From a bacterium (GTDB lineage: Bacteria; Bacillota; Clostridia; Lachnospirales; Lachnospiraceae): DNA of 64,000 nt. The stretch covers positions 1-64,000 of the forward strand of contig JAMPFT010000004.1 of the NCBI GenBank assembly GCA_023664305.1. Direction: 5' to 3'. Below are positions 6,973 through 31,569 of the stretch, piece after piece. Made by a program: the position numbers and the translations under genes. The notes under the pieces are model-generated. The model was not told where the DNA came from and searched no databases. It saw nothing but the letters and a program-made list of their open reading frames with translations. Within the stretch, counting starts at the first letter, position 1; every line of letters begins with the position of its first letter.

Positions 6973-6988
6973 AGCTGCCCCGCGGTTT

Positions 6989-7191
6989 GCGGGATTGGAG
7001 GGCGCTGCCTTTTGCAAAATCCGGAGGTAAGAAAAGAAGCCGTTCCCGCGGCCCGCGGGATTGGAGGGCGCTGCCTTTTGCAAAATCCGGAGGTAAGAAA
7101 AGAAGCCGTTCCCGCGGCCCGCGGGATTGGAGGGCGTTGCCTTTTGCAAAATCCGGAGGTAAGAAAAGAAGCCGCTCCGCGGCCTGCGGGA
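6989..7191 (+). repeat. 66-bp tandem repeat, three copies plus a fragment
   Basis: Near-identical units begin at 6989, 7055 and 7121, with a degenerating fourth start at 7186 after a 65-bp step. Each unit contains GCGGGATTGGAGGGCG, a CTTTTGCAAAA run, CCGGAGGTAAG and a GC-rich palindromic edge (CCGCGGCCCGCGG). A period of 22 codons keeps frames open on both strands, but no start with a fitting ribosome binding site supports translation. The repeat fills most of the 322-bp gap between the carboxypeptidase and zinc-ribbon genes. Confidence 0.9.
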
Positions 7192-7294
7192 TTTGGACAA
7201 AGCGGCGGATTTCCGAGTGGGAGCGCCTTGAACAGATAAAAATACATGCGTTATTATATAAAAAACAGCATTTTCGAGAAGGAGGGGACCTGAG

Positions 7295-10962: not shown

Positions 10963-11003
10963 GCCGCTTCATCCGAAAGAAAAGGATGGAGCGGCACTTT
11001 TTT
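10963..11003 (+). terminator. Intrinsic terminator of pfp
   Basis: GCCGCTTCATCC (10963-10974) pairs with GGATGGAGCGGC (10984-10995). The stem is followed by AC and a T6 run that overlaps the stop codon of the convergent regulator gene. Confidence 0.9.
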
Positions 11004-12026: not shown

Positions 12027-12224
12027 TAAGCGTTAAAGAAATGAATAAATCATTAATTTTGGAAGGAGGAACAAGAGGGGGACAGTAGAATTGTGCAGAT
12101 TAGACAAAAACAGGGAGCGAAATTTCGGCACATAAATCAAAATTGTTTATTGACACTGGGATGATAAAAGAGTATCTTTAAATTAAGATTAAGCAAAATC
12201 ATTAATGATAAAGCAAACGCTTAA
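12027..12224. promoter_or_regulatory. Cluster of repeated operator-like motifs
   Basis: In the 524-bp divergent region, AAATCATTAAT occurs twice (12047-12057 and 12196-12206). TAAGCGTTAA (12027-12036) faces a near inverse copy AACGCTTAA (12216-12224), and ATTAAGCAA occurs near 12188 and 12270. One group flanks the regulator promoter. The other sits just downstream of the transport-operon promoter, a classic roadblock position. They are probably binding sites of the neighbouring regulator. From 12310 to the gene start nothing else is recognisable except the ribosome binding site. Confidence 0.5.
12150..12178 (+). promoter_or_regulatory. Promoter of the carbohydrate transport operon
   Basis: TTGACA (12150-12155), a 17-bp spacer and TATCTT (12173-12178). 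It predicts a 5' leader of about 275 nt that begins inside the second group of operator-like repeats. Confidence 0.75.
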
Positions 12225-12461: not shown

Positions 12462-15431
12462 ATGGCACGGAAAAGTAAAAAAGTTGTAGCGGCGGTGCTG
12501 ACAGCCAGCATAGTCAGCCAGATTTTTTTCGGGGAACTTGCAGCCGGGGTTGTCCATGCAGACACGTCCGGGGACACGGGAACCCAGCAGTCGTCGGGGG
12601 AAACGTTCAGTATTGAGCGTCTTACCTCCAATTATACCATTGTCAGTGCGGGGTATACTGCGGCTGCGTACAAGGGGGATCCTGTGACCTGGCAGATGGA
12701 CAAGGCCCTGGACGGCGGGGATACCGGATATCTGGCAGAAAACAATTACGGGTACGGCAACGGCGTCGTGGATGTGAAGAGTGGTGATTCCTTCCGTATG
12801 ACCGTGACCGTGCCGGAGACGGCACTCTACTGGATCGGGTTTGACTATCTGTCTTACGATGAGTCCATCCTGCCCATTGAGTTTGCGCTGAAGGTAGACG
12901 GGGATTATCCCTTCTACGAGAGCAGGAATCTGTCCTTCGAGACGACGTGGGCCTCGCAGGAGGAGGTTTCCCACGACCGTTACGGAAATGAGATCGTGGC
13001 GATGCCTGACAAACTGATTCAGTGGGAGACCAAGTATCTGTCCGACGCGAGCTACAGGCGTGCCGAGCCTCTCAGCGTAGAGCTGGAGCAGGGAACGCAC
13101 GAGCTGGAGATCGAGGTCAGCGAGGGGACGTTTTTGCTGGGCAATATCACCCTGACGGCTCCCGTGAAGGTGCCGGAGTACACGGGCTCTGAGAAAGCGC
13201 CGGGAAGTGAACTGATCACCATCGAGGGCGAGGATTTCTATCTGAGGAACGATTCCGCCATCCATGCGATCGGAGAGTACGATTCCGCGTTAAATCCCCT
13301 GTCCGCTACGGATACGGTGCTCAACACGGTGGACAGCGACTCCTTCAAGACCGCGGGACAGACAATCACCTACGAGTTCAATGTAGAGAAGGCGGGATAT
13401 TATTATCTGGCCATGAACTATAAGCAGTCCGACAAAAACGACTTCCCGGTATTTCTGGACTTCAGGATTGACGGGGAGATCCCGAACACGGAGTTCCAGA
13501 GTTGGAAGGCCGAGTACACCACCAAGTACCGGAATAAGACGCTCCAGGATACGGACGGCAACAATTTAAGCGTTTATCTGGAGCAGGGACGCCACACGCT
13601 TTCCATTACGATCAGCGTTGAGAATCTGCTGTATGTGCTGGAGCAGGTGGATCAGATCATGAACGGCGTCAACGACCTGTCCCTGGAGGTGACCAAGGTA
13701 GCCGGTACGAACAAGGACAAGTACAGGGATCTGAGGCTGACAAGATACATACCGGACGTACAGGAGAGACTGTACGGATGGGTTGACGATCTTTACGAGC
13801 TGGCGGAGATCGCAACGCAGTATGTGGAGGAGGACGACCCGGAGGACGTGGCGGCTTTCGCATACCTGATTATTGCGGCCAAGCAGCTCAAGAGCCTGGG
13901 CGACGAACCCAACGAGCTGATCTACCGTGTGGCGGAGCTTTCCACGAGCGTAAACTCCATCAACACGCAGATCGCAAACTTCATCGACCTGATCAACGAC
14001 AATAATCTTTCCATCGACAGGATTTATTTCTATCAGGACGACGCGAAGCTTCCGAAGAAGCTGAACGTGTTTAAGAGCATGGGGCTTTCGGTAAAGAGAT
14101 TTGTATATTCCTTCTTCGGAACCTCTTATTCCGCGAGCAATATAGACGAGAATCATCTCCAGGTATGGGTAAACAGACCCAGACAGTATGTGGAGATCAT
14201 GCAGAAGATGATCGACGAGCAGTTCACGGCGCAGACGGGTATCGAGGTGGATCTGTCCCTGATGACCGACGCGAACAAGCTGGTGCTTTCCAACGCTTCC
14301 GGCGATACCCCCGACATCGCAACGGGTATCAACTACGCCATTCCCTTTGAGCTGGGCAGCCGCGGGGCGCTGGTGGACCTGACGAAGTTTGACAATTATA
14401 AAGAAGTGTTCGGAAGATACAGCAGAGGTCTGGTGGTATCCTCCGTCATCGGCGAAGGGCTTTACTCTCTGCCGGAGACCATGAACTTTTATGTTATGTT
14501 CTACCGCTCGGATATTCTGGAGAAGCTGGGACTGGAAGCGCCGGACACCATGGACGATCTGATCGCCATGCTGCCGGATCTGCAGATGAGGGGACTGAAT
14601 GTCTACTATCCCACGGCGTCCATGATGGCGATGCGTAACTTCCACGGGACGACGCCCCTGATCTTCCAGAACGGCGGAAAGCTTTACGGGGAGACGGCGA
14701 CGGAGCTTTTGGTCAACAGCGAGGCTTCCATAGAGGGAATCACGGAGCTGACGGAGCTGTTCACCCTCTATAATCTGCCGGTGGATGTGCCCAATTTCTA
14801 TCAGCACTTCAGGAACGGAGACCTGCCCATCGGCATAGCGGACTTTAACGCCTACAACCTGATCCTGAACGCGGCCCCGGAGATTGCCAATTCCTGGGAG
14901 ATCGCGCTGGTGCCCGGCGTGGAGGATCCGGATACGGGAGAAATCAACAGGTACATGTCCGGCGGCGCGGAGAGCACGGTAATGTTCCAGTCCAATGAGG
15001 AGAGAGAGCAGCAGGCATGGCAGTTTATGGACTGGTGGTCCAGTGCCGAGGTACAGGCGGAGTTCGGACAGATGCTTCAGATCATGTACGGCGACGAGTA
15101 TATCTGGCCCACCGCGAACCTGGAAGCCTTCAACAATCTTCCTTATCCTACCGCCCACAAGGACATCATCATGAGTCAGGCGGAAAATATTCTGGAAGCG
15201 CCCAGACTGCTGGCGAGCTACATGATGGAGCGTGAGCTCAGCAACGCGTTCAACGACATTGTGGTCAACGGCGACACCCTGCGGACCAGAATCGACGAGC
15301 TTGTGAAGACTGTAAACAGAGAGACGACCAGAAAGCTGGAGGAGTTCGGCTACATCGACAGCGACGGGAACGTGCAGGAGGAATATCTTGTTCCCTCGGT
15401 GGACGTAGTAAATCGGATTTTCGGAGATTAG
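12462..15431 (+). CDS. Giant solute-binding protein with N-terminal carbohydrate-binding-like domains
   Basis: The protein has 989 residues, about twice the size of ordinary sugar-binding proteins. It has a signal peptide (1-34, cleavage after VHA) without a lipobox cysteine, so it may be released or held by another part. Two beta-sandwich repeats follow (about 50-230 and 245-395). Each has paired motifs such as YWIGFDYLSYDES / YYLAMNYKQSDKN and LEQGTHELEIEV / LEQGRHTLSITI. A helical section (about 400-560) leads to a family 1 extracellular solute-binding domain from about 568 to the end (SNASGDTPDIATGIN, LPETMNFYVMFYRSDIL). GGAGG is 7 nt before the ATG. It heads the operon and precedes two permease genes. 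Confidence 0.88.
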   Translation: MARKSKKVVAAVLTASIVSQIFFGELAAGVVHADTSGDTGTQQSSGETFSIERLTSNYTIVSAGYTAAAYKGDPVTWQMDKALDGGDTGYLAENNYGYGNGVVDVKSGDSFRMTVTVPETALYWIGFDYLSYDESILPIEFALKVDGDYPFYESRNLSFETTWASQEEVSHDRYGNEIVAMPDKLIQWETKYLSDASYRRAEPLSVELEQGTHELEIEVSEGTFLLGNITLTAPVKVPEYTGSEKAPGSELITIEGEDFYLRNDSAIHAIGEYDSALNPLSATDTVLNTVDSDSFKTAGQTITYEFNVEKAGYYYLAMNYKQSDKNDFPVFLDFRIDGEIPNTEFQSWKAEYTTKYRNKTLQDTDGNNLSVYLEQGRHTLSITISVENLLYVLEQVDQIMNGVNDLSLEVTKVAGTNKDKYRDLRLTRYIPDVQERLYGWVDDLYELAEIATQYVEEDDPEDVAAFAYLIIAAKQLKSLGDEPNELIYRVAELSTSVNSINTQIANFIDLINDNNLSIDRIYFYQDDAKLPKKLNVFKSMGLSVKRFVYSFFGTSYSASNIDENHLQVWVNRPRQYVEIMQKMIDEQFTAQTGIEVDLSLMTDANKLVLSNASGDTPDIATGINYAIPFELGSRGALVDLTKFDNYKEVFGRYSRGLVVSSVIGEGLYSLPETMNFYVMFYRSDILEKLGLEAPDTMDDLIAMLPDLQMRGLNVYYPTASMMAMRNFHGTTPLIFQNGGKLYGETATELLVNSEASIEGITELTELFTLYNLPVDVPNFYQHFRNGDLPIGIADFNAYNLILNAAPEIANSWEIALVPGVEDPDTGEINRYMSGGAESTVMFQSNEEREQQAWQFMDWWSSAEVQAEFGQMLQIMYGDEYIWPTANLEAFNNLPYPTAHKDIIMSQAENILEAPRLLASYMMERELSNAFNDIVVNGDTLRTRIDELVKTVNRETTRKLEEFGYIDSDGNVQEEYLVPSVDVVNRIFGD

Positions 15432-15459
15432 GCATGTATACTCTCAAATATTGAATGAA

Positions 15460-15477
15460 TGCCCGCAGGAGCGGGCA
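15460..15477 (+). promoter_or_regulatory. Intercistronic hairpin after the binding-protein gene
   Basis: TGCCCGC-AGGA-GCGGGCA forms a perfect 7-bp stem with a 4-nt loop, ending just before the permease ribosome binding site (GGAGGTG, 15479-15485). There is no T-run. Such hairpins typically protect the upstream binding-protein mRNA or reduce downstream translation. Confidence 0.7.
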
Positions 15478-15490
15478 TGGAGGTGTAGCG

Positions 15491-16396
15491 ATGAGTAAGA
15501 GGACCAAAATAAGCAGAAGGGAGCATTCCAACAAAGCCGGATATCTGTTTGTTCTCCCTTATGCCCTGCTGTTTACCGTATTCATACTGACTCCGGTAAT
15601 CCTGGCGATTATTCTTTCCTTTACGAACTTTAATACTATACAGTTTCCCAAATTTGTGGGATTCCTGAATTATATCAATCTGATCACCGGCGACGAGGTG
15701 TTCATGCAGCATGTCCTGCCCAACACGGTGATTTACGCGCTGATCGTGGGCGTCGGCGGCTATGTGCTGGCGTTTCTGATGGCCTGGGCCCTGGCGAACC
15801 TGCCCGGCGCGCTGCGGACGGTATTCGCCCTGATCCTGTATTCACCGACCATGACCACCGGCGTTGCGATGTCGGTGCTCTGGAAGATTATCTTTACGGG
15901 CGACCAGACCGGTTACCTGAACAGCTGGCTGATGGATCTGGGCGTGATCAACGAGCCGATCATCTGGCTGGTGAACGAGAATTATCTGCTGCCCATCGTC
16001 ATCTTTATCGGCCTCTGGAGCAGCATGGGCGTGGGCTTTCTGTCGATCATGGCAGGTATCCTGAACACGGACGAATCCCTGTATGAGGCGGCGGCCATCG
16101 ACGGCGTGAAAAACAGGTTCCAGGAGATGATCTATGTGACCATCCCCAGCATGAAGCCGCAGATGCTGTTCGCAGCCGTTATGCAGATCGTGGGAGCGTT
16201 CCAGAACGGACAGATCGCTTCCATGCTGGCCGGCAATCCTACCCCCGGCTACGCGGCGCAGCTGATTGTCAACCACATTGAGGATTACGGATTTATCCGT
16301 TATGAGATGGGCTATGCGGCGGCTGTATCCGTTGCGCTGCTTTTGATCGTACAGGTATTTTCCAAGATCTCCAATAAACTGTTCGGAGAGGATTAG
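15491..16396 (+). CDS. Sugar ABC transporter permease (MalF-type)
   Basis: A 301-residue inner-membrane permease with six predicted helices and the cytoplasmic EAA loop [21 protein letters not shown], which docks on the transport ATPase. The ATG at 15491 has GGAGGTG upstream; an in-frame ATG at 15455 lies in the intercistronic hairpin region and is less likely. It pairs with the next gene as the MalF/MalG-like half of an importer for the giant binding protein. No ATPase is encoded nearby, so a shared MsmK-like ATPase elsewhere is likely. Confidence 0.93.
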
Positions 16397-16408
16397 GAGG
16401 CGTGAAAA

Positions 16409-17281
16409 ATGGCTTATAAAGGACATAAAATCAATCCCAAAAAATTTGAACCGGGTCAGATCAAGATTATTCTGATGGTGCTACCCCTGGTGATTCTCAC
16501 GGGTCTGCCGATTGTGTTCATCATATTCCATGCGTTTAAGCCCATGGAAGAGCTGTTCGCATTCCCGCCCAAGTTTATCACCACGAACCCTACCCTGGAT
16601 AACTTCCGGAAGCTGTTTAAGGCGTCCAGAACCGCGGGCATCCCGCTTTCCAAGTATGTGTTCAACAGCCTGCTGATCACGATCAGCGTAGTGTTCTCCT
16701 CCCTGATTTTCTCCACGGCGGCTGCCTACGCGCTGTCGAAGCTGAAGTTCAAGGGAAGAGAAGCGATGATGCAGATCAATCAGTTTGCCATCATGTTCGT
16801 GGCCGTGGCGGTTATGATTCCCCGCTATCTGGTGGTCAACATGCTGGGCCTGACCAATACCTACTGGGCGCATATCCTTCCGCTGATCCCTCTGCCGGTG
16901 GCGCTGTTTCTGGTCAAACAGTTCGTGGACCAGGTGCCGCAGTCGCTGATCGAGGCGGCGTACATGGACGGGGCGACGGAGATCCATATTTATCTGAAGG
17001 TGATCATCCCGATGATCAAGCCCGCGATCGCTACGGCGGCCATCCTGGTGTTCCAGCAGGTGTGGACCAATATGGAGGCCTCCAACTACTATGTAAACGA
17101 TGAGGGCCTGAAATCCCTTGCCTTTTATATGAATACCTTAAGCAGCGGCACAGGCAACACGGTAGCCGGACAGGGAGTGGCGGCAGCCGCATCGCTGATC
17201 ATGTTTGTACCCAATCTGGTGCTGTTCTGTATCCTGCAGAAAAACGTTATGAATACCATGGCACATTCCGGTATCAAGTAG
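16409..17281 (+). CDS. Carbohydrate ABC transporter permease (MalG-type)
   Basis: A 290-residue second permease of the first importer, with six hydrophobic segments and the EAA motif EAAYMDGATEIHIYLKVIIP. AGGAGGCG lies 7 nt before the ATG, 12 nt after the preceding stop. The C-terminus (LFCILQKNVMNTMAHSGIK) matches the MalG-type end. It is co-transcribed with its partner and followed after 21 nt by the NHL/Yip1-like gene. Confidence 0.93.
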   Translation: MAYKGHKINPKKFEPGQIKIILMVLPLVILTGLPIVFIIFHAFKPMEELFAFPPKFITTNPTLDNFRKLFKASRTAGIPLSKYVFNSLLITISVVFSSLIFSTAAAYALSKLKFKGREAMMQINQFAIMFVAVAVMIPRYLVVNMLGLTNTYWAHILPLIPLPVALFLVKQFVDQVPQSLIEAAYMDGATEIHIYLKVIIPMIKPAIATAAILVFQQVWTNMEASNYYVNDEGLKSLAFYMNTLSSGTGNTVAGQGVAAAASLIMFVPNLVLFCILQKNVMNTMAHSGIK

Positions 17282-17302
17282 AAATGAGAGGGGAAGGAAT
17301 TG

Positions 17303-19351
17303 ATGAAAAAGGTATCAAAAAAGCTTTTATTATCCTTGGCAGTAATCCTTCTGGCCGCGGCCCTGTGGACGCCGCTGGAAGCGTATGCAGACGCCCCCTA
17401 CAAGACGTACACGGTTGACGGATACGGTTATGTGACGGAGACGCAGACGGCGTATCTTCCCTATCTGACGATTACGAAGGTCGGAGAAGAGGCGTTGAAC
17501 GGGCCGACGGACTTCACTCTTCTGGACGACGGCACGATGTACATCTTAGACAGCGGCAACTGCAGAGTGGTGGTTTCCGATCTGGAGGGCAATCTGATTG
17601 ATGTGTTCGGAGAGGGGACGCTGGTGAATCCGAAAGGAATCTATGTGACCCCGGAGCATATCTGTTATGTGGCGGACAGAGACGCCAGAAGCGTTTTCGT
17701 CTTTGACGAAGACGGCAAGCTGATACAGACCTACGGGAAGCCCGAGCATGCCCTGTACGGCAGCACACAGGATTTCCTGCCGATCAAGATTGTGGTAAAT
17801 TCCTCGGGAACCATGTATGTGATCTGCGAATCCAATACAAACGGTATCGTGCAGATCAGCCCGGTGGAGGGCGGCACCTTCCTGGGGTATTTCGGCACGA
17901 ACGCCACCAGCGCAAACCTTTGGACCATCGTCTGGAGGGCGCTGCAGACGGACGCTCAGAGGGCAAAGTCCCAGAGCAACCTTCCCTCCACGCCCACGAA
18001 CCTCTCCATCGATGAGAAGGGTCTGATCTATACGGTGACGGCGGGAGAAAAAGACGATACGCTGAAGCGCCTGAACATTGCGGGCACGAATATGATCGAG
18101 CCGGAGCGTTACGACGATACGCCGGCGGCGGTGGCTCCCGGTAACCACGACAACGTGTTCGTGGCATCGACACAGGGGTACATATACGAGTACAACAACG
18201 AAGGCGAGATGCTCTTTGTATTCGGCGGCGCCGACGACGGACAGCAGAGAATCGGCCTTTCCACGAAAGTGGAGGCGATCCAGATCGGAACCGACGACAA
18301 GATCTATGTGCTGGATTCCGAGAAGGCGCAGATTCAGGTTTATGAGCCTACAGAGTTTACCAGCCTGCTGCACGAGGCGCTGTATCTGTTCTCCAAGGGC
18401 CGTTACACGGCCAGCAAGGAGCCGCTGTCCCAGGTGCTGGAGATGAACAACCTGTTTGCTTACGCCAACATGGCTATGGGCATGGCGCTGGTGCAGGAGG
18501 AAAATTACGAGGAGGCTTTAAGCTACTCCAAGCTGGCAAAGGATTTTGACGGTTATTCGGACGCTTTCTGGGAGATCAGAAACGAATGGCTGAAGGATTA
18601 TCTGGTTCCGGTCGTCCTGATCATCGTGGCGTTTTTCGTGATCAAGAAGATCCTGCAGGTACTCGACAAAAAGAAGGGGATTCTGGCGGGTCCCAGAAGG
18701 GCGTTGGAAAAATTCAAGGACCGGAAGCTTGTCAGGGAAATCAATTACATGTTTTATTTTATGAGACATCCCATCGACGGCTGCTACGGTATTAAGAGAG
18801 AGGGAAGAGTCTCCCTGCTGAGCACGAACATCCTTCTGGTGGTGGGAGTTCTGTTCTTCATCATTAACAAATATTTCTGCGGATTCCTGTTGAAGACGGT
18901 GCGGGAAGGAAGCTACGACATCGTGTCGGACATCGGCCTGATCGTGATCGCCCTTGTGCTGATAACGGGCTGTAACTACCTGATCTGTACGATCAACGAA
19001 GGGGAAGGAAAGCTGAAGCATATCTACTGCTCCTTTGTATATAGCTTCGCACCTTACCTGGCGATTATGCCGCTGGTATTTGTGCTCTCCCATGTGGTGA
19101 CCTACAACGAGGTATTCTTCATACAGTTTGCGACGGTGTTTATGTATGTGTGGATCCTGATCCTGGTGTTTATTTCCATCATGGAGATCAACAGCTACAA
19201 TGTGAAGGAAACCATAAAGATCATCGGGCTGACGTTGTTTACGATTCTGATAGCCGTCCTGCTGGCATTTATCATCTATGTGCTGTGGTCGCAGGTATTT
19301 GAATTTATTCAGGCTATCATCGGAGAGGTGGTGTATAGGATTGGCAGCTAA
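17303..19351 (+). CDS. Secreted NHL-propeller/TPR protein with a Yip1-like membrane domain
   Basis: The 682-residue protein has a signal peptide (about 1-30). NHL-type beta-propeller repeats span about 45-350 (GPTDFTLLDDGTMYILDSGNCRV, then NPKGIYVTPEHICYVADRDARSVFVFDEDGKL). A TPR-like helical pair follows (LHEALYLFSKGRYTASKEPL and MALVQEENYEEALSYSKLA). The C-terminal half from about 435 has six or so membrane segments of the Yip1 type, after a basic cytoplasmic stretch. The propeller and TPR would face outward. ATG 17303 is preferred over the adjacent TTG. Its place between two permease pairs suggests an organising or sensing role for the importers or secreted enzymes, which is inference. Confidence 0.8.
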   Translation: MKKVSKKLLLSLAVILLAAALWTPLEAYADAPYKTYTVDGYGYVTETQTAYLPYLTITKVGEEALNGPTDFTLLDDGTMYILDSGNCRVVVSDLEGNLIDVFGEGTLVNPKGIYVTPEHICYVADRDARSVFVFDEDGKLIQTYGKPEHALYGSTQDFLPIKIVVNSSGTMYVICESNTNGIVQISPVEGGTFLGYFGTNATSANLWTIVWRALQTDAQRAKSQSNLPSTPTNLSIDEKGLIYTVTAGEKDDTLKRLNIAGTNMIEPERYDDTPAAVAPGNHDNVFVASTQGYIYEYNNEGEMLFVFGGADDGQQRIGLSTKVEAIQIGTDDKIYVLDSEKAQIQVYEPTEFTSLLHEALYLFSKGRYTASKEPLSQVLEMNNLFAYANMAMGMALVQEENYEEALSYSKLAKDFDGYSDAFWEIRNEWLKDYLVPVVLIIVAFFVIKKILQVLDKKKGILAGPRRALEKFKDRKLVREINYMFYFMRHPIDGCYGIKREGRVSLLSTNILLVVGVLFFIINKYFCGFLLKTVREGSYDIVSDIGLIVIALVLITGCNYLICTINEGEGKLKHIYCSFVYSFAPYLAIMPLVFVLSHVVTYNEVFFIQFATVFMYVWILILVFISIMEINSYNVKETIKIIGLTLFTILIAVLLAFIIYVLWSQVFEFIQAIIGEVVYRIGS

Positions 19352-21545
19352 GTTTGAACGGAAGTTAAAAAAGGTAACGGCTTTCCTGCTGACGGCGGTC
19401 TGTCTGATCGCATCGGGATTCTTCCTTCCGCAGACGGCGGCAAGGGTATCCGCGGCGGAGCAGATTAACGGCCATAGCCTCATAGCGGAAAATGACAGCT
19501 ATGCGCTGTACATGAACGAAGAGTATCTGTCGATCATTGTACAGGACAAGGCGACAGGAGCTTACATGGAGTCGGCGATCAGTTACGACGACGGCAAGAA
19601 TAACGCCACATGGTCCGCGGCTATGCGCTCCGCGCTGGTGCTGACCATGATCCACGGCACCACCGATACCCAGCAGGCGGATCTGATCAACGACGATGTG
19701 ACAAAGGACGTCTCCTACACATCCGACGGATTTTCCGCAAAGGTGTATTGGAACAGCTACAAATTCGGAATGACCCTTAACGTTACGCTCACGGAGGACG
19801 GTGTGGTGGCAGAGATACCCGACGAATCCATCGTGGAGGACGGCGAGGATTACTTTATCGGCACCATCGCGGTATACCCTTATCTGGGCCACTCCTACCT
19901 GGATGACAAGGAAGGATATATGTTCATCCCGGACGGAAACGGGGCGCTGATCTACTTAAACGATAAGGAAGGGCGGTTCCAGAGCGGATTCACGGGAATG
20001 ATCTACGGAAGCGATCCGGGCTTTTCGAGGCCGAGTACCTCCAACCTTCTCTGGCAGGAGTACCTGATCGTCAACAGCTCCAACAAGATTATGGCGCCGG
20101 TGTTCGGCATGGCCCATACGGAAGAGGGAATCGCTTATCTGGCGGTGGTCGAGAAGGGCGCGGAGCGCGCCAACATTATGGCGAACCCCAACGGCGTCAA
20201 TGTGGATTACAACAGAATCTACGCGCGGTTTACGGAGAGGGTGGTTTATACACAGTACACAAGCAACAACTCCTCCTCGGCTTATCAGACGGCGGAGACG
20301 GGAAGAAGCCATTCGGATCTGCAGGTTCACTGGATTTTCCTGCGGAATGAAAACGCAAACTACTGCGGCATGGCAAACGCCTACAGAAATTATCTGATGG
20401 AGCGTGGAGACTTAAACAAGGCGGAGGATCTCTCCTACAAGACAAGAGTAGACTTCCTGGGCACGGACAGAGAGTCCTGGGTCGTGGGAACCAGCGCCGT
20501 GGTCATGACGACGGTGGAGGATATCAGAGAGATTTACAGCGACCTGAAGGAAGAGGGATTGACGGATCTTTTCACCGTCTACAAGGGATGGCAGAAGGGC
20601 GGCCTGTACAATCTGCCCATAACCTCCTACAAGGCGGACTCCAAGATCGGCGGCACAGGGGAGCTGACGAGCCTGATTCAGGACGCCGAGGAGCAGGGGA
20701 TCGAGTTTTATCTTTACAACGACGCCCTGCGGCTGAACCCGGACGAAAGCGGTTCCGTATTCAACGTGGTGAAGCAGGTGAACAAGAGAAGGTATTCGGA
20801 ATCCACCTACAAGGAGGTATACGAATCGCTTCTTTACCTGATCCCTTCGAGAAGCAGTACCCTTTTGAACCAGTTTGTGAAGAGCTATACAAAGAAAGAC
20901 GTCAACCGTCTGGCGCTGGCCGGGATCAGCAATACGCTGTTCTCCCACTATTACGACAGCGTATTCTACAGCAGACATGAGACTGCACAGGAATACGACG
21001 GTATTTTGAGCCAGATATCGCAGCAGACAGACCTGGTATTGGAACAGCCCTTTGCTTACCTCTGGAAGTATACGGACACCTTTTTGGATATGCCACTGTA
21101 CACCTCGAATTACATGTATGAGGATGAGAGCGTACCGTTTATGTCGATCGTGCTGAAGGGTGTGATGCCCGTCTATTCCGAATATGTGAACTTTGAGGCG
21201 AACAAGCAGGAATTTTTCCTGAAGATGGTGGAGACGGGAACCTATCCCTCCTTCTATATCACAAAGGAGAGCTCGTCGGCGCTGGTGAATACAAACTCAA
21301 GCGACGTATACAGCTCGCAGTATGAAGTGTATCGGAGCACCATGGCAGACTACGCGGAGCAGCTCTCGCAGATCAATCAGAAGGTTGAGGGCGCTTACAT
21401 TTCGGGACATGAGATCAGAGGCAACGGAATCACGGTGGTAACCTATGACAACGGTGTAAAAATCTATCTGAACTACAGCAGCGCTGCAGCAGAGGCGGAT
21501 GGCTACACGATCGAAGGAATGTCCGTAAAGGTGGTAGATGAATGA
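19341..21545 (+). CDS. DUF5696 protein, probable exported glycosidase-like enzyme
   Basis: A protein of about 734 residues with a basic N-terminus and signal peptide (cleavage near VSAAE, residue 40). An N-terminal beta-sandwich region (YALYMNEEYLSIIVQDKATG ... FIPDGNGALIYL) precedes a region that looks like a TIM barrel (DFLGTDRESW, TVEDIREIYSDLKEEGLTD, LIQDAEEQGIEFYLYNDALR). This recalls GH families such as GH31 or GH101, but no catalytic pair is assigned for DUF5696. The only plausible start is TTG at 19341, overlapping the preceding gene by 11 nt, with GAGAGGTGG upstream. Its stop overlaps the next start as ATGA. It is tightly coupled in the transport operon. Confidence 0.75.
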   Translation: MAAKFERKLKKVTAFLLTAVCLIASGFFLPQTAARVSAAEQINGHSLIAENDSYALYMNEEYLSIIVQDKATGAYMESAISYDDGKNNATWSAAMRSALVLTMIHGTTDTQQADLINDDVTKDVSYTSDGFSAKVYWNSYKFGMTLNVTLTEDGVVAEIPDESIVEDGEDYFIGTIAVYPYLGHSYLDDKEGYMFIPDGNGALIYLNDKEGRFQSGFTGMIYGSDPGFSRPSTSNLLWQEYLIVNSSNKIMAPVFGMAHTEEGIAYLAVVEKGAERANIMANPNGVNVDYNRIYARFTERVVYTQYTSNNSSSAYQTAETGRSHSDLQVHWIFLRNENANYCGMANAYRNYLMERGDLNKAEDLSYKTRVDFLGTDRESWVVGTSAVVMTTVEDIREIYSDLKEEGLTDLFTVYKGWQKGGLYNLPITSYKADSKIGGTGELTSLIQDAEEQGIEFYLYNDALRLNPDESGSVFNVVKQVNKRRYSESTYKEVYESLLYLIPSRSSTLLNQFVKSYTKKDVNRLALAGISNTLFSHYYDSVFYSRHETAQEYDGILSQISQQTDLVLEQPFAYLWKYTDTFLDMPLYTSNYMYEDESVPFMSIVLKGVMPVYSEYVNFEANKQEFFLKMVETGTYPSFYITKESSSALVNTNSSDVYSSQYEVYRSTMADYAEQLSQINQKVEGAYISGHEIRGNGITVVTYDNGVKIYLNYSSAAAEADGYTIEGMSVKVVDE

Positions 21546-22594
21546 GCAAAGAAAAGAAAGTAAAAGATCCCAGGAGTAAGCTTGGGAAACTGGAAAAACG
21601 AGAGGCGAGAGTGGGTTATTTCTTCGTCGCGCCATGGCTGATCGGCGTGGTTCTGTTCCTGTTATACCCTCTTTGCCAGTCCTTTTATTACATGTGGTTC
21701 AACATCAGGATCACGCCGCTGCAGACAGTGTACACCTACGTCGGCACCGGTAACTTTACGCAGATCTGGCTGGAAAATCCGGAGTTCCCCCAGCAGATCG
21801 TGACCTATCTGTGGCAGACCGTCGTGGAAGTACCGATTATCGTCGTGTTTGCCCTGATGATTGCCATTATGCTGAACGGTAAGATCAAGTGCAGAGGACT
21901 TTTCCGTCTGATCTTCTTCCTGCCGGTCATCATTGTCAGCGGACCGGTTATGAACATGCTGGTCACCGAGGGGGCGGCAGCCATACCTGCCATGAATACG
22001 GATTCCATCATGGCGGCCTTTGACACGTTCCTGCCCACCTCTCTGGCAGAGTCCATCACGGAGATTTTCTCCGACATGATCATGATCCTCTGGTACTCCG
22101 GAGTTCAGATTCTGATCTTTTTGTCGGCGCTGCAGAAGATCGACAGCGCCATGTACGAGGCGGCCGCCATGGACGGCGCTTCCGGCTGGGAGAGCTTCTG
22201 GAAGATCACCCTGCCTACGATCAAGCCTTATATTTTGCTGAATGCGGTCTATTCCGTTATCTTCTTATCCAGCAACGAGCAGAACGAGCTGATCACCATG
22301 ATTCAGAGCGCCATGTTCTCGGGTACGAAGGAGAAGGGCTACGGATATGCGGCGGCCATGGCCTGGATGTACGCTTTGATCGTCACAGCCATCGTGCTTT
22401 TGTTCTTCCTGCTGTTGGGATCCAAGAAGGATATGTATGACAGACAGGTAAAGCGCAGACAGCGGGCGATGAAGAAGGAAGCGAGACTTGTGAAGAAGAT
22501 CGAAAGGAGGGGACAGAGAAATGCAAAGAAGATCGAACGCGCAAGGCAAAAGCGCAGCTACAAGACCTACAGCGGCGAAAGCGACTATAAGTAA
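21542..22594 (+). CDS. Sugar ABC transporter permease (second importer, MalF-type)
   Basis: A 350-residue permease with six helices and the EAA loop EAAAMDGASGWESFWKITLP. The start overlaps the previous stop (ATGA at 21542-21545), with AAAGGTGG upstream. It carries an unusual C-terminal cytoplasmic tail of about 55 residues made mostly of Lys and Arg (QVKRRQRAMKKEARLVKK onward), encoded by the DNA that also contains the start of the next gene. This tail is longer than usual for the family. Confidence 0.92.
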   Translation: MSKEKKVKDPRSKLGKLEKREARVGYFFVAPWLIGVVLFLLYPLCQSFYYMWFNIRITPLQTVYTYVGTGNFTQIWLENPEFPQQIVTYLWQTVVEVPIIVVFALMIAIMLNGKIKCRGLFRLIFFLPVIIVSGPVMNMLVTEGAAAIPAMNTDSIMAAFDTFLPTSLAESITEIFSDMIMILWYSGVQILIFLSALQKIDSAMYEAAAMDGASGWESFWKITLPTIKPYILLNAVYSVIFLSSNEQNELITMIQSAMFSGTKEKGYGYAAAMAWMYALIVTAIVLLFFLLLGSKKDMYDRQVKRRQRAMKKEARLVKKIERRGQRNAKKIERARQKRSYKTYSGESDYK

Positions 22595-23528
22595 AATGTT
22601 TACCAGAGAAAAAATGCGCCGGTTTGTATTCGGCACCCGTGAGAAAGAGGGCGCCGGGAAACAGATTGTCGTGTACGGTCTGTTAATCTGTATCGGATTT
22701 GTGTATCTTTATCCGATCTTCAGCATGATCAGCACCAGCCTGATGAATCAGGACGATTTGCTGGATTCCTCCGTGAACTGGCTGCCGGGCACCCTGTACA
22801 TCCAGAATTATCTGGACGCGGCCAAGAGCATGAACTTCTGGCTGTCTCTGCTGAAGGGAATTGTGATCGCGGGGATACCGACCCTGTTAAACATTCTGAT
22901 CTGTATGGTAGTAGGCTACGGCTTCGCGACTTACGCCTTCAAGGGCAAGACGATCATGATGGGACTTTTGATTTTCGCCTACATCCTGCCCAGCCAGGTG
23001 ACTATGATCCCGACCTACAGTCTGTACAGTAAGATGGGTATCGTGGGAACGCTTTGGACCTTTATCCTGCCTGCTTTGTTCGGCAATGGTCTGAATGCCC
23101 CCATCTTTATCCTGATTTTCTACCAGTTCTTCCGACAGGTGCCGAAAGTATTGCTGGAGGCGGCCAAGATCGACGGAGCGGGATATTTCAAGACCTTTGT
23201 GAAGGTGGCGGTTCCTTCCGCCGGTCCCGCGATTCTGACGGTCGGCCTGTTCTCCTTCGTGTGGTACTGGAACGAGTCCTACCTGACGGAGATGTACGTC
23301 CAGGGGTTATCCAGCAAGAGTACCTGGGTGAATCTGGTGGTACAGCTGAAGAACTTTGATTCGAGCTTTGAGTCCATGCAGGCCACGGGCGACGCGGCGG
23401 TAAGCTTAAGCGAGCCTGTGCGTATGGCGGCGACGGCGATCAGTATCCTGCCGCTGATGCTGATGTATCTGATCCTGCAGAAGCAGTTCGTGGAGAGTAT
23501 CGACAGAGCGGGTATCACTGGCGAATAG
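22521..23528 (+). CDS. Carbohydrate ABC transporter permease (second importer, MalG-type)
   Basis: A permease with EAAKIDGAGYFKTFVKVAVP as the EAA loop and a MalG-type C-terminus (LILQKQFVESIDRAGITGE). The start at 22521 has a strong GGAGGGG site 9 nt upstream, making 335 residues and a 74-nt overlap with the preceding gene. The alternative ATG at 22596 sits 2 nt after that gene's stop but has no ribosome binding site. The overlapped segment therefore codes for two basic tails in different frames. It is followed by a structured spacer and the lipoprotein binding-protein gene. Confidence 0.9.
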   Translation: MQRRSNAQGKSAATRPTAAKATISKMFTREKMRRFVFGTREKEGAGKQIVVYGLLICIGFVYLYPIFSMISTSLMNQDDLLDSSVNWLPGTLYIQNYLDAAKSMNFWLSLLKGIVIAGIPTLLNILICMVVGYGFATYAFKGKTIMMGLLIFAYILPSQVTMIPTYSLYSKMGIVGTLWTFILPALFGNGLNAPIFILIFYQFFRQVPKVLLEAAKIDGAGYFKTFVKVAVPSAGPAILTVGLFSFVWYWNESYLTEMYVQGLSSKSTWVNLVVQLKNFDSSFESMQATGDAAVSLSEPVRMAATAISILPLMLMYLILQKQFVESIDRAGITGE

Positions 23529-23713
23529 TGTGAGAAGAAGTTCTAATCGCTCAACAGCCAGCTGTTTCGCGAAGAACTTCTACGGCGCAAGAGAGCGCCT
23601 ACTCACACAGAAGAATCCGCGGAGCGGATTCTTCCGGATTAGGTCTTGATTCGGCGGTGAGCCGGGTGGAGATAAATGCATGCATGGAGGCGCTACCCTT
23701 CAATGGCGCCTCC
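23528..23713 (+). promoter_or_regulatory. Structured intercistronic spacer with a three-way junction and hairpins
   Basis: GTGTGAG (23528-23534) pairs with CTCACAC (23602-23608) and encloses AGAAGTTCT (23536-23544) with AGAACTTCT (23573-23581), plus GGCGC/GCGCC (23584-23599). Next is an 11-bp hairpin with a GGA triloop (23610-23634). Last is GGAGGCGC/GCGCCTCC (23686-23713), ending about 10 nt before the binding-protein ribosome binding site. No T-run follows, so processing or attenuation fits better than termination. Confidence 0.6.
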
Positions 23714-23735
23714 GGAAAAAGAAGGAGGAAGGATG

Positions 23736-25256
23736 ATGAAAAAGAAGATTTTGGCTTTGCTGCTGTGTTCTGCAACGGTATTGGCCATGGCCGGCTGCGG
23801 CAATCAGGGAAACGGGCCCTCCGGCAAGGTGGACGAGAACGGCGTTACCACCGACGACATTACGCTGACCTACTGGCACCTCGAGGATGAGACCACCATG
23901 AACCTGTTGGCGGAAGCATTTATGAAGAAATACCCCAACATTACGGTGGAGACCAGACAGATCAGCGACATGAGCACTGACCTTTCCGCTGCTGCTACGG
24001 CGCAGACTTTCCCGGATGTGTTCGCAGGAACGGATGTGGATACGGCTCTGGCAAACCAGTATTGGAGAGACATCACCGAGTACTGGGAGAACGATCCCGA
24101 GAATCAGAATCTGATGCCCACCATCAACGAGTACGGCATCGGCTGCTTCGACACCAGTGTAAGGTATGCGGCTCCCGTGTGGTGCCAGCCCAGCGCCATG
24201 TTCGTAGACAGGAACGTGGTAGAGACCCTGAACCTGACCATGCCCGACACGGACTGGACCTGGGATGAGATGATCGACTTCATCAAGAAGGCGACGCAGG
24301 GCAGCGGCGGCGACAAGTATTACGGACTGGGCTACTACAACCGTCTGGATTCCCTGTACGGCATCGCAGCGGTATCTCCCGATGTGCGCCGGATCAAGGG
24401 TGAGTTCGGATTCAACGGAACGGATTACGATCTGTCCTACTGGGCAATCGGCGAGCAGCAGTTTGCCGATCTGAAGCTGGCGGGCTACGTTGCGCCTCTT
24501 CAGGGAACCGCGGCTATGTACGACTGGTTGGGCGATCCCGACGCGTGGTTCGGCAATACGGGACATGCGGCGGTTGCCTCCGAGGGCTTCTGGACCTTCC
24601 AGAATATCTGGAACACCACTTCGGACGACGGCATTTCCTATCAGGAGAAAAACGGCGGCACGGACTGGATCCCTTATGTAACGCCCAACGTAGTTGACGA
24701 GAAAGAGCACAACACTATCGCCAGCATGTATTTGGGGGGGGTTTCTACCTCCTGTAAGTACCCTTACGAGGCGTATCTGCTCTTAAAGTTTATGGGCTGG
24801 GGCGTGGACGGCTGGAACGCGAGACTGGATATCTATGAGGACGAGACGATCGTCAATTCCTCAAACGTGCCTTTGAAGGCGGCTATGATGCCGGTTCCTC
24901 TGACCCTGGATCAGGGCGTCTGGGACAGATATAAGGCTCTGTTCCCGCAGGATGCGGATCACAAGCAGTATTGGGACGATTATTTTGACAGCATCACAAG
25001 GCCGGTTACCTTCGGCTGGCAGAGTATCGCGGGCTACTGGAATTTCTGCGATCAGTATTTCAACAAGATCGGTATCCATGACCTGGTAGACAACGGTTCG
25101 AAACAGGCGGCTGACTATGTGGAAGAGGCGACCAGACAGGCGAATTACCATCACGCAGAGGCGATGGTTTCCTACTTTGGGCCGAACGGCTACGGCATCC
25201 TTACGGATGAGGAGCTTGCTTCTTACCAGACGTATATTGACGCGTTTACGGAATAA
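23736..25256 (+). CDS. Lipoprotein extracellular solute-binding protein, family 1
   Basis: A 506-residue membrane-anchored sugar-binding protein. The signal sequence MKKKILALLLCSATVLAMAGC ends in a lipobox, with Cys as the modified residue. Typical family 1 motifs follow (DDITLTYWHLEDETTMNLLA, AATAQTFPDVFAGTD, DTDWTWDEMIDFIKKA). GGAGGAAGG precedes two adjacent ATGs at 23733 and 23736; the second has the better 7-nt spacing. It probably serves the second permease pair. An 8-G homopolymer at 24734-24741 lies inside the gene (in YLGGVSTS) and would truncate the protein if it changed length. Confidence 0.92.
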   Translation: MKKKILALLLCSATVLAMAGCGNQGNGPSGKVDENGVTTDDITLTYWHLEDETTMNLLAEAFMKKYPNITVETRQISDMSTDLSAAATAQTFPDVFAGTDVDTALANQYWRDITEYWENDPENQNLMPTINEYGIGCFDTSVRYAAPVWCQPSAMFVDRNVVETLNLTMPDTDWTWDEMIDFIKKATQGSGGDKYYGLGYYNRLDSLYGIAAVSPDVRRIKGEFGFNGTDYDLSYWAIGEQQFADLKLAGYVAPLQGTAAMYDWLGDPDAWFGNTGHAAVASEGFWTFQNIWNTTSDDGISYQEKNGGTDWIPYVTPNVVDEKEHNTIASMYLGGVSTSCKYPYEAYLLLKFMGWGVDGWNARLDIYEDETIVNSSNVPLKAAMMPVPLTLDQGVWDRYKALFPQDADHKQYWDDYFDSITRPVTFGWQSIAGYWNFCDQYFNKIGIHDLVDNGSKQAADYVEEATRQANYHHAEAMVSYFGPNGYGILTDEELASYQTYIDAFTE

Positions 25257-25314
25257 CAGTATGCGGCATGACAAAAACATGCCGCAGACATAAAAAAGGA
25301 GGATTTAGGACATA

Positions 25315-26877
25315 ATGAAAAAGAAATTACTGAGTATTCTGCTGTGCGGAGCGATGATCGGAACCATGCTGACCGCCTGCGGAAACAATGAGACACCCAA
25401 TGAGAGCGGAAGCAGCACCCCCAGCAGCGCGGAGTCTTCCGATCAGGGAGAGGTAACTCCCGTAGAGGTTACCCCGGAAGCGCTGCCCGCTGCTGCTTTT
25501 GCGCATTACACCTTTGACGGCGACGACGAGGGCTACACGGCGGTGACCCAGGCGACTAAGGCGGACGACAGCGCCAACGACGGCGCAAACTATGATCTGG
25601 TACCGGTGGAGGGCGCGTCCTTCTACTATGCGGACGGCGCGGTAGGCAAGGCCCTGTTCCTGGACGGCTCCTACGGCCTTGACCTGAATCTGCAGCCCAC
25701 CAACACGGACGTTTACACCGTATCCTTCTGGCTGAACGCAAAGTTCTTCTTCCAGTACGGGCCGACCCTGCAGATCGGCTATAACATCGGTAAAGCGGAC
25801 AACGCGGGCAACAATGTTACCTGGATGAATATTACGGAGTCCACCTGGGGCGCAGGCGACGCGCTGATCTTCCCCATGATCTGGAGCCGTAACGAAGCCA
25901 GCGACGCTCAGGACGGCACAGACTGCTGGCCTTGGATGTACGCGTGGGACGATTCCGTACACGGAAAACAGGAATGGATTATGATCACCGTGGTCAGCTC
26001 CGGCGAGAAGCAGGACGGCGCGACCGGTGCTACGACCGTGGGCGCGCAGTATTACCTGAACGGCCAGCTGATGTATGACTCCCAGGACAACTATACCAAC
26101 CACACCTACTGGGAGGAGTGGACATGGGACGCAACGCTTGCTCCCAATATCATGAAGCCCGGCGATTCCGAGTTTGAGGCTTATATCGGCGTCAACTATT
26201 GGGATCCCATGTATATCGGCTATGTGGACGATCTGTATGTGTATGACACCGCGCTGACCGCAGGTCAGGTATTGAGCCTGTATCAGATGGGCGATCCTTC
26301 CGTAGCGGTAGAATATCCCGATTCCGTATCGGAACCCGCTGAGCCCGAGGCGGTTGACCACAGCGACGTAGTGATCACCGGCACACAGGTAGGCGCGACA
26401 GACTGCTCCAGCGCTTTCTTCAAAGAATTTTCTGAGATAGTGGCAGTTCCCAGCGGTGAGTCCGTGACTGTGAACTTTAAGAACTACAGCAGTAGACTGA
26501 ATAACTGGAACAACTTTTCTGTAGTTTTACAAAATGTGGCAGAAGGACATACTGCAGATGAAACTTCAGACGTTCCTTACAATCCCGATTACAAGGAGTA
26601 TGCCGTGATGCGTGCGGACAACTGGGGTTGGGGCGTGGGCTATGATAACATTGCGACGGCTGCCTGCGACTGGAACTGGGATACCTTCACGAGCGATATC
26701 GACGGCGCGGACGTAGCGCTGACCATCACCAACAACGGCGACACCGCTGACGTAGTGGCGGTAGTGACGACCACTGCGGGAACCGTTTACAACCAGTCCT
26801 ACACCGGCATCGCAGTGGACGGCGACCTGTATTACTGCCTGACCGTTGACGGATCCTTCATCGACATCCAGCAATAG
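25315..26877 (+). CDS. LamG-domain lipoprotein
   Basis: A 520-residue lipoprotein with lipobox LTAC at about 20-23 and a Ser/Glu/Pro linker to about 60. A LamG/concanavalin-like jelly roll follows at about 65-335 (FAHYTFDGDD, GKALFLDGSYG, YTVSFWLNAKF, YIGYVDDLYVYDTALTAGQVLSLY). From about 365 there is a second beta-sandwich rich in Trp and Asn that probably binds polysaccharide. No catalytic residues are evident, so it is most likely a surface glycan-binding partner of the importer. Within 26410-26600 the base composition becomes visibly more AT-rich and codon choice shifts, hinting at a recombined domain. The gene is preceded by AAGGAGG. Confidence 0.85.
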   Translation: MKKKLLSILLCGAMIGTMLTACGNNETPNESGSSTPSSAESSDQGEVTPVEVTPEALPAAAFAHYTFDGDDEGYTAVTQATKADDSANDGANYDLVPVEGASFYYADGAVGKALFLDGSYGLDLNLQPTNTDVYTVSFWLNAKFFFQYGPTLQIGYNIGKADNAGNNVTWMNITESTWGAGDALIFPMIWSRNEASDAQDGTDCWPWMYAWDDSVHGKQEWIMITVVSSGEKQDGATGATTVGAQYYLNGQLMYDSQDNYTNHTYWEEWTWDATLAPNIMKPGDSEFEAYIGVNYWDPMYIGYVDDLYVYDTALTAGQVLSLYQMGDPSVAVEYPDSVSEPAEPEAVDHSDVVITGTQVGATDCSSAFFKEFSEIVAVPSGESVTVNFKNYSSRLNNWNNFSVVLQNVAEGHTADETSDVPYNPDYKEYAVMRADNWGWGVGYDNIATAACDWNWDTFTSDIDGADVALTITNNGDTADVVAVVTTTAGTVYNQSYTGIAVDGDLYYCLTVDGSFIDIQQ

Positions 26878-27115: not shown

Positions 27116-27294
27116 TCACAAGTTGTCCGTTTGGGACAGCATTTTTATCCGATAGGAAATTTTCGCAGTCAAAGCGTCACGAAGGAATCCTTTTACGGAG
27201 GTGAGCGGGCTGCGGAGAGGCTGCATTGCCGACACGGGCGGCGAAAAAGAGAGCGCCGGGCGGAATCGACCGGCCGGCGTGGATGGGAGAAGTT

Positions 27295-28791
27295 ATGGAG
27301 ACAGGAAAAAAATATCAGTTTTGGTTTTGCACCGGCTCCCAGGATTTGTACGGGGACGAGTGCTTGAGGAAGGTTGCGGAGCATTCCGCAAAGATGGTGG
27401 AGGGCCTGAATGCCTGCGGGAAGTTGCCCTTTGAGGTGGTGTGTAAGCCCACACTGATCAGCCAGGCGTCGATCCGCAAGACCTTAAATGAGGCGAACGC
27501 GGACGAGAGGTGCGCCGGGGTTATCACCTGGATGCACACCTTTTCTCCGGCGAAGATGTGGATCATCGGACTGCAGGAGTACAGGAAGCCCCTGTGTCAT
27601 CTGCACACCCAGTTTAACGAGGAGATTCCCTACGACGAGATCGACATGGATTTCATGAACGAGAACCAGTCCGCTCACGGCGACAGGGAGTACGGCCACA
27701 TCGTCAGCCGCATGGGCATCGAGCGCAAGATCATCGTGGGTCACTGGGCAAGCGTCTCCGTTCAGGAGAAGCTGGGCAGCTGGATGCGCACCGCCGTAGG
27801 CGTGATGGAATCCAGTCATCTGCGGATCTGCCGTCTGGGCGACAATATGAACAACGTAGCCGTCACCGAGGGCGACAAGGTAGAGGCGCAGATCAAATTC
27901 GGCTGGGAGATCGACCACTACAATATCAACGACGCCGTGGAGTATGTACAGGCGGTATCCCAGGCGGATACGGACGCGAGGGTGGAGGAGTATTACGCAA
28001 AATACAAGCTGCTGACGGACGGACGGGACGAAGGAGCCTTCCGGGAGGCGGTGGCGGTACAGGCTGCCATCGAGATCGGTCTGGAGAGATTTTTGGAGGA
28101 GGGAGACTATCACGCGGTGGTAACCCACTTTGGAATGCTGGGTGCTCTGCGGCAGCTGCCGGGCCTTGCCATCCAGAGGCTGATGGAAAAGGGCTACGGC
28201 TTTGGCGCGGAGGGCGACTGGAAGACCGCGGCCATGGTGAGACTGATGAAGCTTATGACGGCGGGAGTAAAGGACGCGAAGGGAACCTCCTTCCTGGAGG
28301 ACTACACCTATAACCTGATTCCCGGCAAGGAAGGGATTCTGCAGGCTCATATGCTGGAGGTATGCCCTACTATCGCGGAGGGGGATATTGCAATCCGCGT
28401 GAACCCGCTGACCATGGGCAACCGGGAGGATCCCGCGAGACTGGTATTCACCGCGAAGGAGGGCAGAGGCGTAGCTGCCTCCATGGTGGATCTGGGCAAC
28501 CGCTTCCGCCTGATCGTCAACGAGGTAGAGTGCAAAAAAGTAGAAAAGCCCATGCCGAAGCTGCCGGTGGCCACAGCCTTCTGGACGCCCATGCCGAACC
28601 TGGAGACTGGGGCGGCGGCCTGGATCATGGCGGGCGGCGCTCATCACACCGCATTCTCCTATGACCTTTCCGTGGAGCAGATGACGGACTGGGCGGACGC
28701 TATGGGGATCGAGAGCGTGGTAATCGACGCGGATACGAATCTGCGGGATTTCAAAAACGAGCTGAGGTGGAATTCGGTATACTACCGCTAA
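27295..28791 (+). CDS. araA: L-arabinose isomerase
   Basis: A 498-residue enzyme converting L-arabinose to L-ribulose. The N-terminal signature YQFWFCTGSQDLYG, the active-site region GAEGDWKTAAMVRLM, the second Glu region GTSFLEDYTYNLIPG, and His residues in AHMLEVCP and GGAHHTAFSYDLS are all conserved. Length matches the family. ATG 27295 follows GGGAGA; an in-frame ATG at 27226 would add an unconserved extension. No ribulokinase or ribulose-phosphate epimerase gene follows, so the pathway must be completed elsewhere. Position next to GH43 genes links the locus to arabinan use. Confidence 0.95.
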   Translation: METGKKYQFWFCTGSQDLYGDECLRKVAEHSAKMVEGLNACGKLPFEVVCKPTLISQASIRKTLNEANADERCAGVITWMHTFSPAKMWIIGLQEYRKPLCHLHTQFNEEIPYDEIDMDFMNENQSAHGDREYGHIVSRMGIERKIIVGHWASVSVQEKLGSWMRTAVGVMESSHLRICRLGDNMNNVAVTEGDKVEAQIKFGWEIDHYNINDAVEYVQAVSQADTDARVEEYYAKYKLLTDGRDEGAFREAVAVQAAIEIGLERFLEEGDYHAVVTHFGMLGALRQLPGLAIQRLMEKGYGFGAEGDWKTAAMVRLMKLMTAGVKDAKGTSFLEDYTYNLIPGKEGILQAHMLEVCPTIAEGDIAIRVNPLTMGNREDPARLVFTAKEGRGVAASMVDLGNRFRLIVNEVECKKVEKPMPKLPVATAFWTPMPNLETGAAAWIMAGGAHHTAFSYDLSVEQMTDWADAMGIESVVIDADTNLRDFKNELRWNSVYYR

Positions 28792-31491: not shown

Positions 31492-31569
31492 TTGTATTTT
31501 ATTGAATGGAGGTCAGCGCGCCCTGCCGGGCATAATAGGTAACAGGCTGACGCCGGGAGGTTGCAGGAA

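Follow-up and report, generated by a model that had tools for sequence, protein, structure and literature searches.

How Gram-positive gut and rumen bacteria, which have no outer membrane, capture and import long fragments of plant glycans is, to our knowledge, poorly understood. This question is raised by a gene cluster in a Lachnospiraceae genome (GenBank assembly GCA_023664305.1, contig JAMPFT010000004.1, positions 1 to 64,000 of the forward strand; this whole stretch of 64,000 nt is called the window), where two complete permease pairs and two solute-binding proteins (SBPs) are encoded together with an NHL/Yip1 membrane protein and a protein of the DUF5696 family. Do the two middle genes belong to the importer and, if so, what might they do in it? 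Our results show that seven of these genes, SBP1-PA1-PB1-NHL/Yip1-DUF5696-PA2-PB2, form a conserved sugar-import module, which is apparently undescribed. The reading that we prefer, and to which we give about equal measures of belief and doubt, is that the module, which lies here in an arabinan locus, may work as a dual CUT1-type importer: a Yip1-propeller scaffold and a glycosidase-derived DUF5696 protein on the outer face would organise it, and an MsmX-type ATPase whose gene lies elsewhere would energise it.

The seven genes and SBP2 form a single run on the + strand, with intergenic gaps of at most 23 nt from SBP1 up to PB2. The run opens with SBP1 (12462..15431), a positionally conserved protein with an SBP_bac_1/8 domain. 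It is followed by the permeases PA1 (MalF/UgpA type, 15455..16396) and PB1 (MalG/UgpE type, 16409..17281), the NHL-Yip1 protein with a TTG start (17300..19351), the DUF5696 protein (19341..21545), the permeases PA2 (MalF/UgpA type, 21542..22594) and PB2 (MalG/UgpE type, 22521..23528, its true start possibly lying further downstream), and SBP2 (23676..25256). The open reading frame (ORF) of the DUF5696 gene opens at 19278, and its likely start is a TTG at 19341 behind GGAGAGG, so that it overlaps the end of the Yip1 gene by 11 nt, not 74; PA2 overlaps the DUF5696 gene by 4 nt. The initial annotation was right in placing two full permease pairs, two binding proteins and both middle genes in one run, in describing start-stop overlaps in mid-run with the Yip1 and DUF5696 genes between the pairs, and in finding no ATPase gene within the run. 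From the gene spacing, we infer one transcript. Between 11900 and 29000, terminator-like sites are near background (16 found vs. 13.3 expected), and promoter-like sites are at background (11 vs. 13.2).

It had been proposed that the middle genes are integral parts of the system, and their conservation agrees with this: the relatives sampled do not show them to be mostly absent or unlinked, the outcome that would have spoken against the idea. Among 30 loci retrieved via the Yip1 protein (L064-L093), the titles of which include Lachnospiraceae, Butyrivibrio, Oscillospiraceae, Ruminiclostridium and Ruminococcus albus 8, 26 hold all eight genes in the same order and on the same strand, while the other four (L083, L088, L089, L092) keep that order until their contigs end. 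Of the named relatives, L064 (Lachnospiraceae) is the nearest, with 92% identity in the Yip1 protein, and the order is kept down to identities to the window of 38% for DUF5696, 42% for SBP2, 51% for SBP1 and 56% for the Yip1 protein, PA2 and PB2. Such an order, kept at low identity, is more than chance, and a chance neighbourhood is thereby ruled out. At the best Yip1 matches within the genus (30 loci, L034-L063, one of them in the window itself), 28 loci have DUF5696 and 29 have PB1; the three incomplete ones (L061 and L063 without DUF5696, L062 without PB1) all lie at contig ends.

A less biased sample was centred on DUF5696 and comprised 60 loci, 57 of which hold the gene (weak matches below the cut-off in L104-L106 were excluded). 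The labels of this set, as well as those of the phylum sample and of the ten-locus set described below, come from hidden Markov models (HMMs) seeded with proteins of the window and of its two paralogous loci L094 and L095; they are circular for these three, which is why Pfam was also applied to L094 and L095. Counting the window and both paralogues, the labelled gene preceding DUF5696 is Yip1/NHL in 54 of the 57 loci, and the next one is a PA permease in 55. The loci that deviate are L112, L027 and L109, which reach contig ends; L120, which is reordered and is the same place as L138; and L122, with a mere ~0.5 kb before the DUF5696 gene and no label found in it.

Matches to DUF5696 over the cut-off occur in 96 of the 138 genomes of the genus and in 9 of the 119 genomes of the phylum sample (the window's own included), with at least eight or nine matches in one genome. 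In the 138 genus genomes, among the matches listed, 91 of 150 SBP1 N-terminal matches have DUF5696 4-11 kb downstream, at distances of 5.9-8.1 kb; likewise, 91 of 150 listed DUF5696 matches have a listed SBP1 N-terminal match upstream, many contigs being short. For 19 of the 50 best Yip1 matches, no listed DUF5696 match lies within 4 kb. Of the 59 SBP1 places left without a partner, we examined ten, picked for also having a Yip1 match, and the seven-gene core was found in all ten (PB2 runs off the contig in L164, NHL and Yip1 are in separate genes in L166, and Pfam confirmed DUF5696 in L158 and L165). The pairing of 91/150 therefore understates the linkage.

The phylum sample, consisting of 20 chosen DUF5696 neighbourhoods from eight genomes, revealed that the module exists in a long and a short form. 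Yip1/NHL precedes DUF5696 in 19/20 neighbourhoods (in L138 it lies after PB2), and PA2-PB2 follow in 18/20, the other two (L129, L140) reaching contig ends. The set SBP1-PA1-PB1 is located upstream in 11/20. The nine short-form loci come from three genomes of two families (G199, G177, G219), which also carry long-form modules (L131, L136, L137, L139, L142). The short core is thus NHL/Yip1-DUF5696-PA2-PB2.

All four permeases of the window bear the EAA...G motif of the MalF/MalG type. Trees with midpoint rooting, built from 18 long-form modules, the PA2/PB2 sets of four short-form ones and a small number of further permeases, showed that the pairs are two old separate lineages: PA1 is monophyletic in 18/18 (support 0.991), PA2 in 22/22 (0.685), PB1 in 18/18 (1.0) and PB2 in 22/22 (0.888). 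In the window, PA1 is only 20.8% identical to PA2, and PB1 23.0% identical to PB2. Since the four permeases fall into four old clades, a recent duplication of one pair is rejected.

As for the ATPase, the genome holds one protein of the UgpC/MsmX type over the cut-off (C17:6215-7315, 499 bits vs. 432), and no permease or SBP was labelled in the 14 kb around it (L156, C17:1-14000, where the gene spans 6215-7324). MsmX of B. subtilis is described in the available part of PMC5730181 as a multipurpose ATPase serving several importers, and the enzyme encoded on C17 may likewise energise both permease pairs by docking to them.

The distance between PA1 and PA2 would also fit two independent, co-regulated importers for different sugars, with Yip1/NHL and DUF5696 serving PA2-PB2 only and the SBP1 set standing apart. 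This is favoured by the nine phylum-sample loci that have NHL/Yip1 and DUF5696 (seven of them with PA2-PB2 in view) and lack the SBP1 set beside them. On the other hand, SBP1-PA1-PB1 adjoins the core in the remaining 11 and in all ten apparently unlinked loci, always on the same strand and on the same side. We regard two separate importers as rather unlikely.

The DUF5696 protein is assigned to its family with 586 bits in Pfam and bears an N-terminal signal or anchor. The predicted fold resembles GH129 and GH101 glycoside hydrolases (GH) over nearly the whole model, which consists of an N-terminal beta-sandwich, a TIM barrel and a C-terminal beta domain, as in GH129. Profile matches to 5opq/8rzk and NagBb are weak but significant, and their alignments end before the catalytic strand. 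The Pfam GH129 model gave no match to the protein (hmmscan, E 0.1), PF18952 and PF23618 alone being listed; PF11308 (GH129) had no match in the 119 phylum genomes, where the controls likewise gave none, and a search with a NagBb fragment yielded one weak plasmid match. The position corresponding to the catalytic Asp435 of NagBb, in an inferred register, is Gly549 in 10/10 window-type sequences, and no acidic residue is found at 545-551 of the window protein.

This makes the term glycosidase, used in the initial annotation, doubtful: the predicted fold supports it, but the catalytic residue appears to be missing in the window subfamily. A binding or structural role, judged from sequence and predicted structure, is at least as likely. 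The opposite explanation would have DUF5696 represent a new family of glycosidases, active outside the cell and anchored at the importer by Yip1/NHL so that the products pass straight to the permeases. Besides the fold and the profile matches, this could draw on the inferred position being Asp or Glu in 24 of the 33 non-window rows and on E589, kept in 10/10 window-type rows. However, no acidic column is invariant across all 43 rows, the best kept residue, E652 (42/43), lies in a helix and not at the expected strand end, and the same family stands beside very different companion enzymes, which is unusual for a linkage-specific enzyme. Taken together with Gly549, these data lead us to consider an active enzyme unlikely.

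The scaffold in the preferred reading would be the NHL-Yip1 protein, which scores 37.1 bits for NHL and 29.2 bits for Yip1 (PF04893; cut-off 28.6) in Pfam. In the predicted model, an NHL beta-propeller (49-352) and helical repeats (352-413) are followed by a transmembrane (TM) segment and the Yip1 domain, where hydropathy predicts five TM. The matches in the PDB cover the propeller only, so that they barely test the Yip1/TM fold. The TPR repeats claimed for this protein have a Pfam score well under the cut-off (15.9 vs. 32.7 bits), and what stands of that claim is the helical repeats of the model. In both same-genome paralogues, L094 and L095, NHL-TPR and Yip1 are separate genes, and the split Yip1 proteins pass the cut-off with 62.7 and 52.7 bits; Pfam likewise confirmed both NHL and Yip1 for L123, L131, L126 and L138, whether the proteins are fused or split. 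That the two parts are joined in one lineage and separate in another suggests that they act together.

Whether they act as a surface sensor or an organiser had been left as alternatives, and only the organiser has a precedent, namely YknW, which modulates the assembly of the YknWXYZ complex (PMC4887032 and PMC10707071, in the parts available). That one SBP-permease set is mainly a sensor, with the NHL/Yip1 protein or SBP1 signalling sugar occupancy to the regulator, is very improbable, for although a regulator is encoded divergently upstream and CuaD of Ruminiclostridium cellulolyticum is reported to be a second SBP with a part in regulating cellobiose/cellulose use (excerpts of PMC10384115), Pfam finds neither a kinase nor any other signalling domain in the NHL/Yip1 protein, and the EAA motif is present in all four permeases.

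Pfam assigns both binding proteins encoded alongside the permeases to the family-1/8 solute-binding proteins. SBP1 is indeed a giant without a lipobox, as first described: it has 989 aa and a signal-type N terminus, the first 45 residues of which contain no lipobox. Its solute-binding domain lies within residues 578-871, and the long part preceding it has a character resembling a carbohydrate-binding module (CBM) in scores below the cut-off only (CBM_35 14.7 bits; Golvesin_C in paralogues). SBP2 is a lipoprotein (lipobox MAGC), again as first described. It occupies the same position in the 26 fully covered relatives, and a GH30 gene takes its place in the paralogue L095; SBP2 thus belongs to the arabinan-type cluster and not to the invariant core. 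In seven loci (L157-L163), an extra SBP gene lies directly 5′ of SBP1, and no SBP was labelled downstream of PB2.

Putting these parts together, we propose the following sequence of events. A secreted GH43 endo-arabinanase, by homology, would release arabino-oligosaccharides, which SBP1 with its large N-terminal part and the lipoprotein SBP2 would catch outside the cell. The two CUT1-type permease pairs, both energised by the MsmX-type ATPase, would then import them. The Yip1 domain, the outward-facing propeller-TPR part and the anchored DUF5696 protein may hold the permease pairs and SBPs together in a physical complex, acting, by analogy with YknW, as an assembly factor and a docking platform on the outer face. 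DUF5696, presumably derived from a glycosidase, might bind the glycan or partner proteins with no cutting, as its fold and missing Asp suggest. Finally, a cytoplasmic GH43 enzyme and AraA would complete the breakdown. A bolder version, which we think improbable, makes the module an ABC importer of a type of its own, a single machine with two permease-heterodimer lineages and SBPs on a Yip1-propeller scaffold, where a repurposed DUF5696 hands over long oligosaccharides, a Gram-positive counterpart of SusCD-type systems that works with many enzymes.

Several observations weigh against this scheme. The nine phylum-sample loci without an adjacent SBP1-PA1-PB1 indicate that a second pair is no absolute requirement in them, and L138 (G199:C9, 8080-15015) is reordered as DUF5696-PA2-PB2-NHL/Yip1. 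The paralogue L095 has no SBP2; its protein in the NHL position has no Pfam NHL match and TPR matches below the cut-off only, and its PA1 and PA2 score under the Pfam permease cut-off (21.0 and 20.8 vs. 26.4). Two more ATPases, at 334 and 300 bits, fall under the 432-bit cut-off, and they make the ATPase partner uncertain. The model of the Yip1 protein has low overall confidence (pTM 0.54), and the fused protein of L165 matches NHL and not Yip1 in Pfam (E 0.001), its Yip1 label coming from our own HMM. The register of the catalytic position in DUF5696 was derived from spacing and strand order rather than from a structural alignment; the window group retains acidic residues, E589 and E652 among them, that could serve another mechanism, and the profile comparison with GH101 is weak (probability 4.7%, E 0.0086, 3 sequences). 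Lastly, the YknW precedent is an exporter, whereas the transporters of the module are of the importer type.

The enzymes encoded around the module bear on its substrate. The window's own genome has two further modules with the seven-gene core. In L094, where PA2 is also just below the Pfam permease cut-off, an SBP gene lies downstream of the core, and another SBP gene and a GH43-like gene lie upstream; in L095, the core is followed by GH30 and GH35 genes. Companions elsewhere comprise GH26 with CBM35, GH5 with GH16, GH35, GH106, a pectate lyase, GH31, GH5 and an apiosidase-like enzyme, and the remaining neighbours that were scanned either lack enzyme domains (HEAT-repeat proteins included) or are unrelated genes. 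Such variety of companions implies that the module is not tied to one glycan, and it fits the multi-part glycan uptake system envisaged at the outset. Large HEAT-repeat proteins are encoded downstream of long-form modules at three loci of the phylum sample (L131:15071-18163, L135:545-3445, L142:1385-4267).

In the window, the same-strand run goes on past a lipoprotein gene (25315..26877, +), kept in many arabinan-type clusters outside the core, without a Pfam match over the cut-off and passed over in the initial annotation, with genes for L-arabinose isomerase AraA (27226..28791, +) and two GH43 enzymes. The first of these, with GH43 and GH43_C domains, is endo-1,5-alpha-arabinanase-like (28961..31060, +; match to 4kca, E 7.8e-122); the second resembles arabinofuranosidases/beta-xylosidases (31561..32535, +), lacks a hydrophobic N-terminal segment and is presumably cytoplasmic. 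The GH43_C enzyme has strongly hydrophobic stretches at 136-154 and 166-184 before its GH43 domain, and the latter resembles a further signal peptide. Divergently from the cluster lies the gene of an ArsR/SmtB-type helix-turn-helix regulator with a C-terminal part of ~230 residues (11002..11937, −), relatives of which are placed divergently upstream in L064, L065, L067 and L092. Between this gene and SBP1, the perfect palindrome AAGCAAACGCTT (12211..12222, +) is a possible operator; it occurs at 5 sites in the window vs. 1.31 expected, the other four being within ORFs. A Gram-positive polysaccharide utilisation locus (gpPUL) is defined, in the part of PMC5320581 available, by a degrading enzyme, a transporter and a regulator in one locus. 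All three are present here, and the window locus is therefore a gpPUL by the published definition; its substrate, as suggested by the enzymes predicted from sequence, is most likely arabinan.

The initial annotation knew of no description of this arrangement, and the open-access literature searched yielded none: DUF5696 is named in no paper there (subscription papers being mostly outside this scope), and 'YIP1 family protein' and 'extracellular solute-binding protein' occur together in none. The module is common and accompanies very different glycosidases, DUF5696, a family of unknown function, gains a defined genomic context, and a role in sugar import becomes possible for bacterial Yip1 proteins. 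Like other gpPULs, the locus unites enzyme, transporter and regulator, but the importer architecture is absent from PMC5320581 as far as the two were compared. The DUF5696 protein shares the predicted fold of GH129 and GH129-like enzymes (NagBb; the Zobellia 3,6-anhydro-D-galactosidase) and of GH101 over nearly its whole model. Unlike them, it has no Pfam GH129 match and, in the window subfamily, no acidic residue at the inferred catalytic position, and it is membrane-linked and adjoins permeases in 55/57 loci. As in YknWXYZ of Bacillus and the BawDEFG bacteriocin clusters, a multi-span Yip1-family protein is encoded with an ABC transporter; both of those systems are exporters, and the Yip1 domain of the module further differs in bearing a propeller-TPR ectodomain. 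The closest parallel in transport is AraNPQ-MsmX of Bacillus subtilis, which also combines a MalF/MalG-type pair with EAA motifs, an SBP and no ATPase in the cluster, one UgpC-type ATPase being encoded elsewhere. What sets the module apart from it is the presence of two different permease pairs and two SBPs, with the NHL/Yip1 and DUF5696 genes coupled between them.

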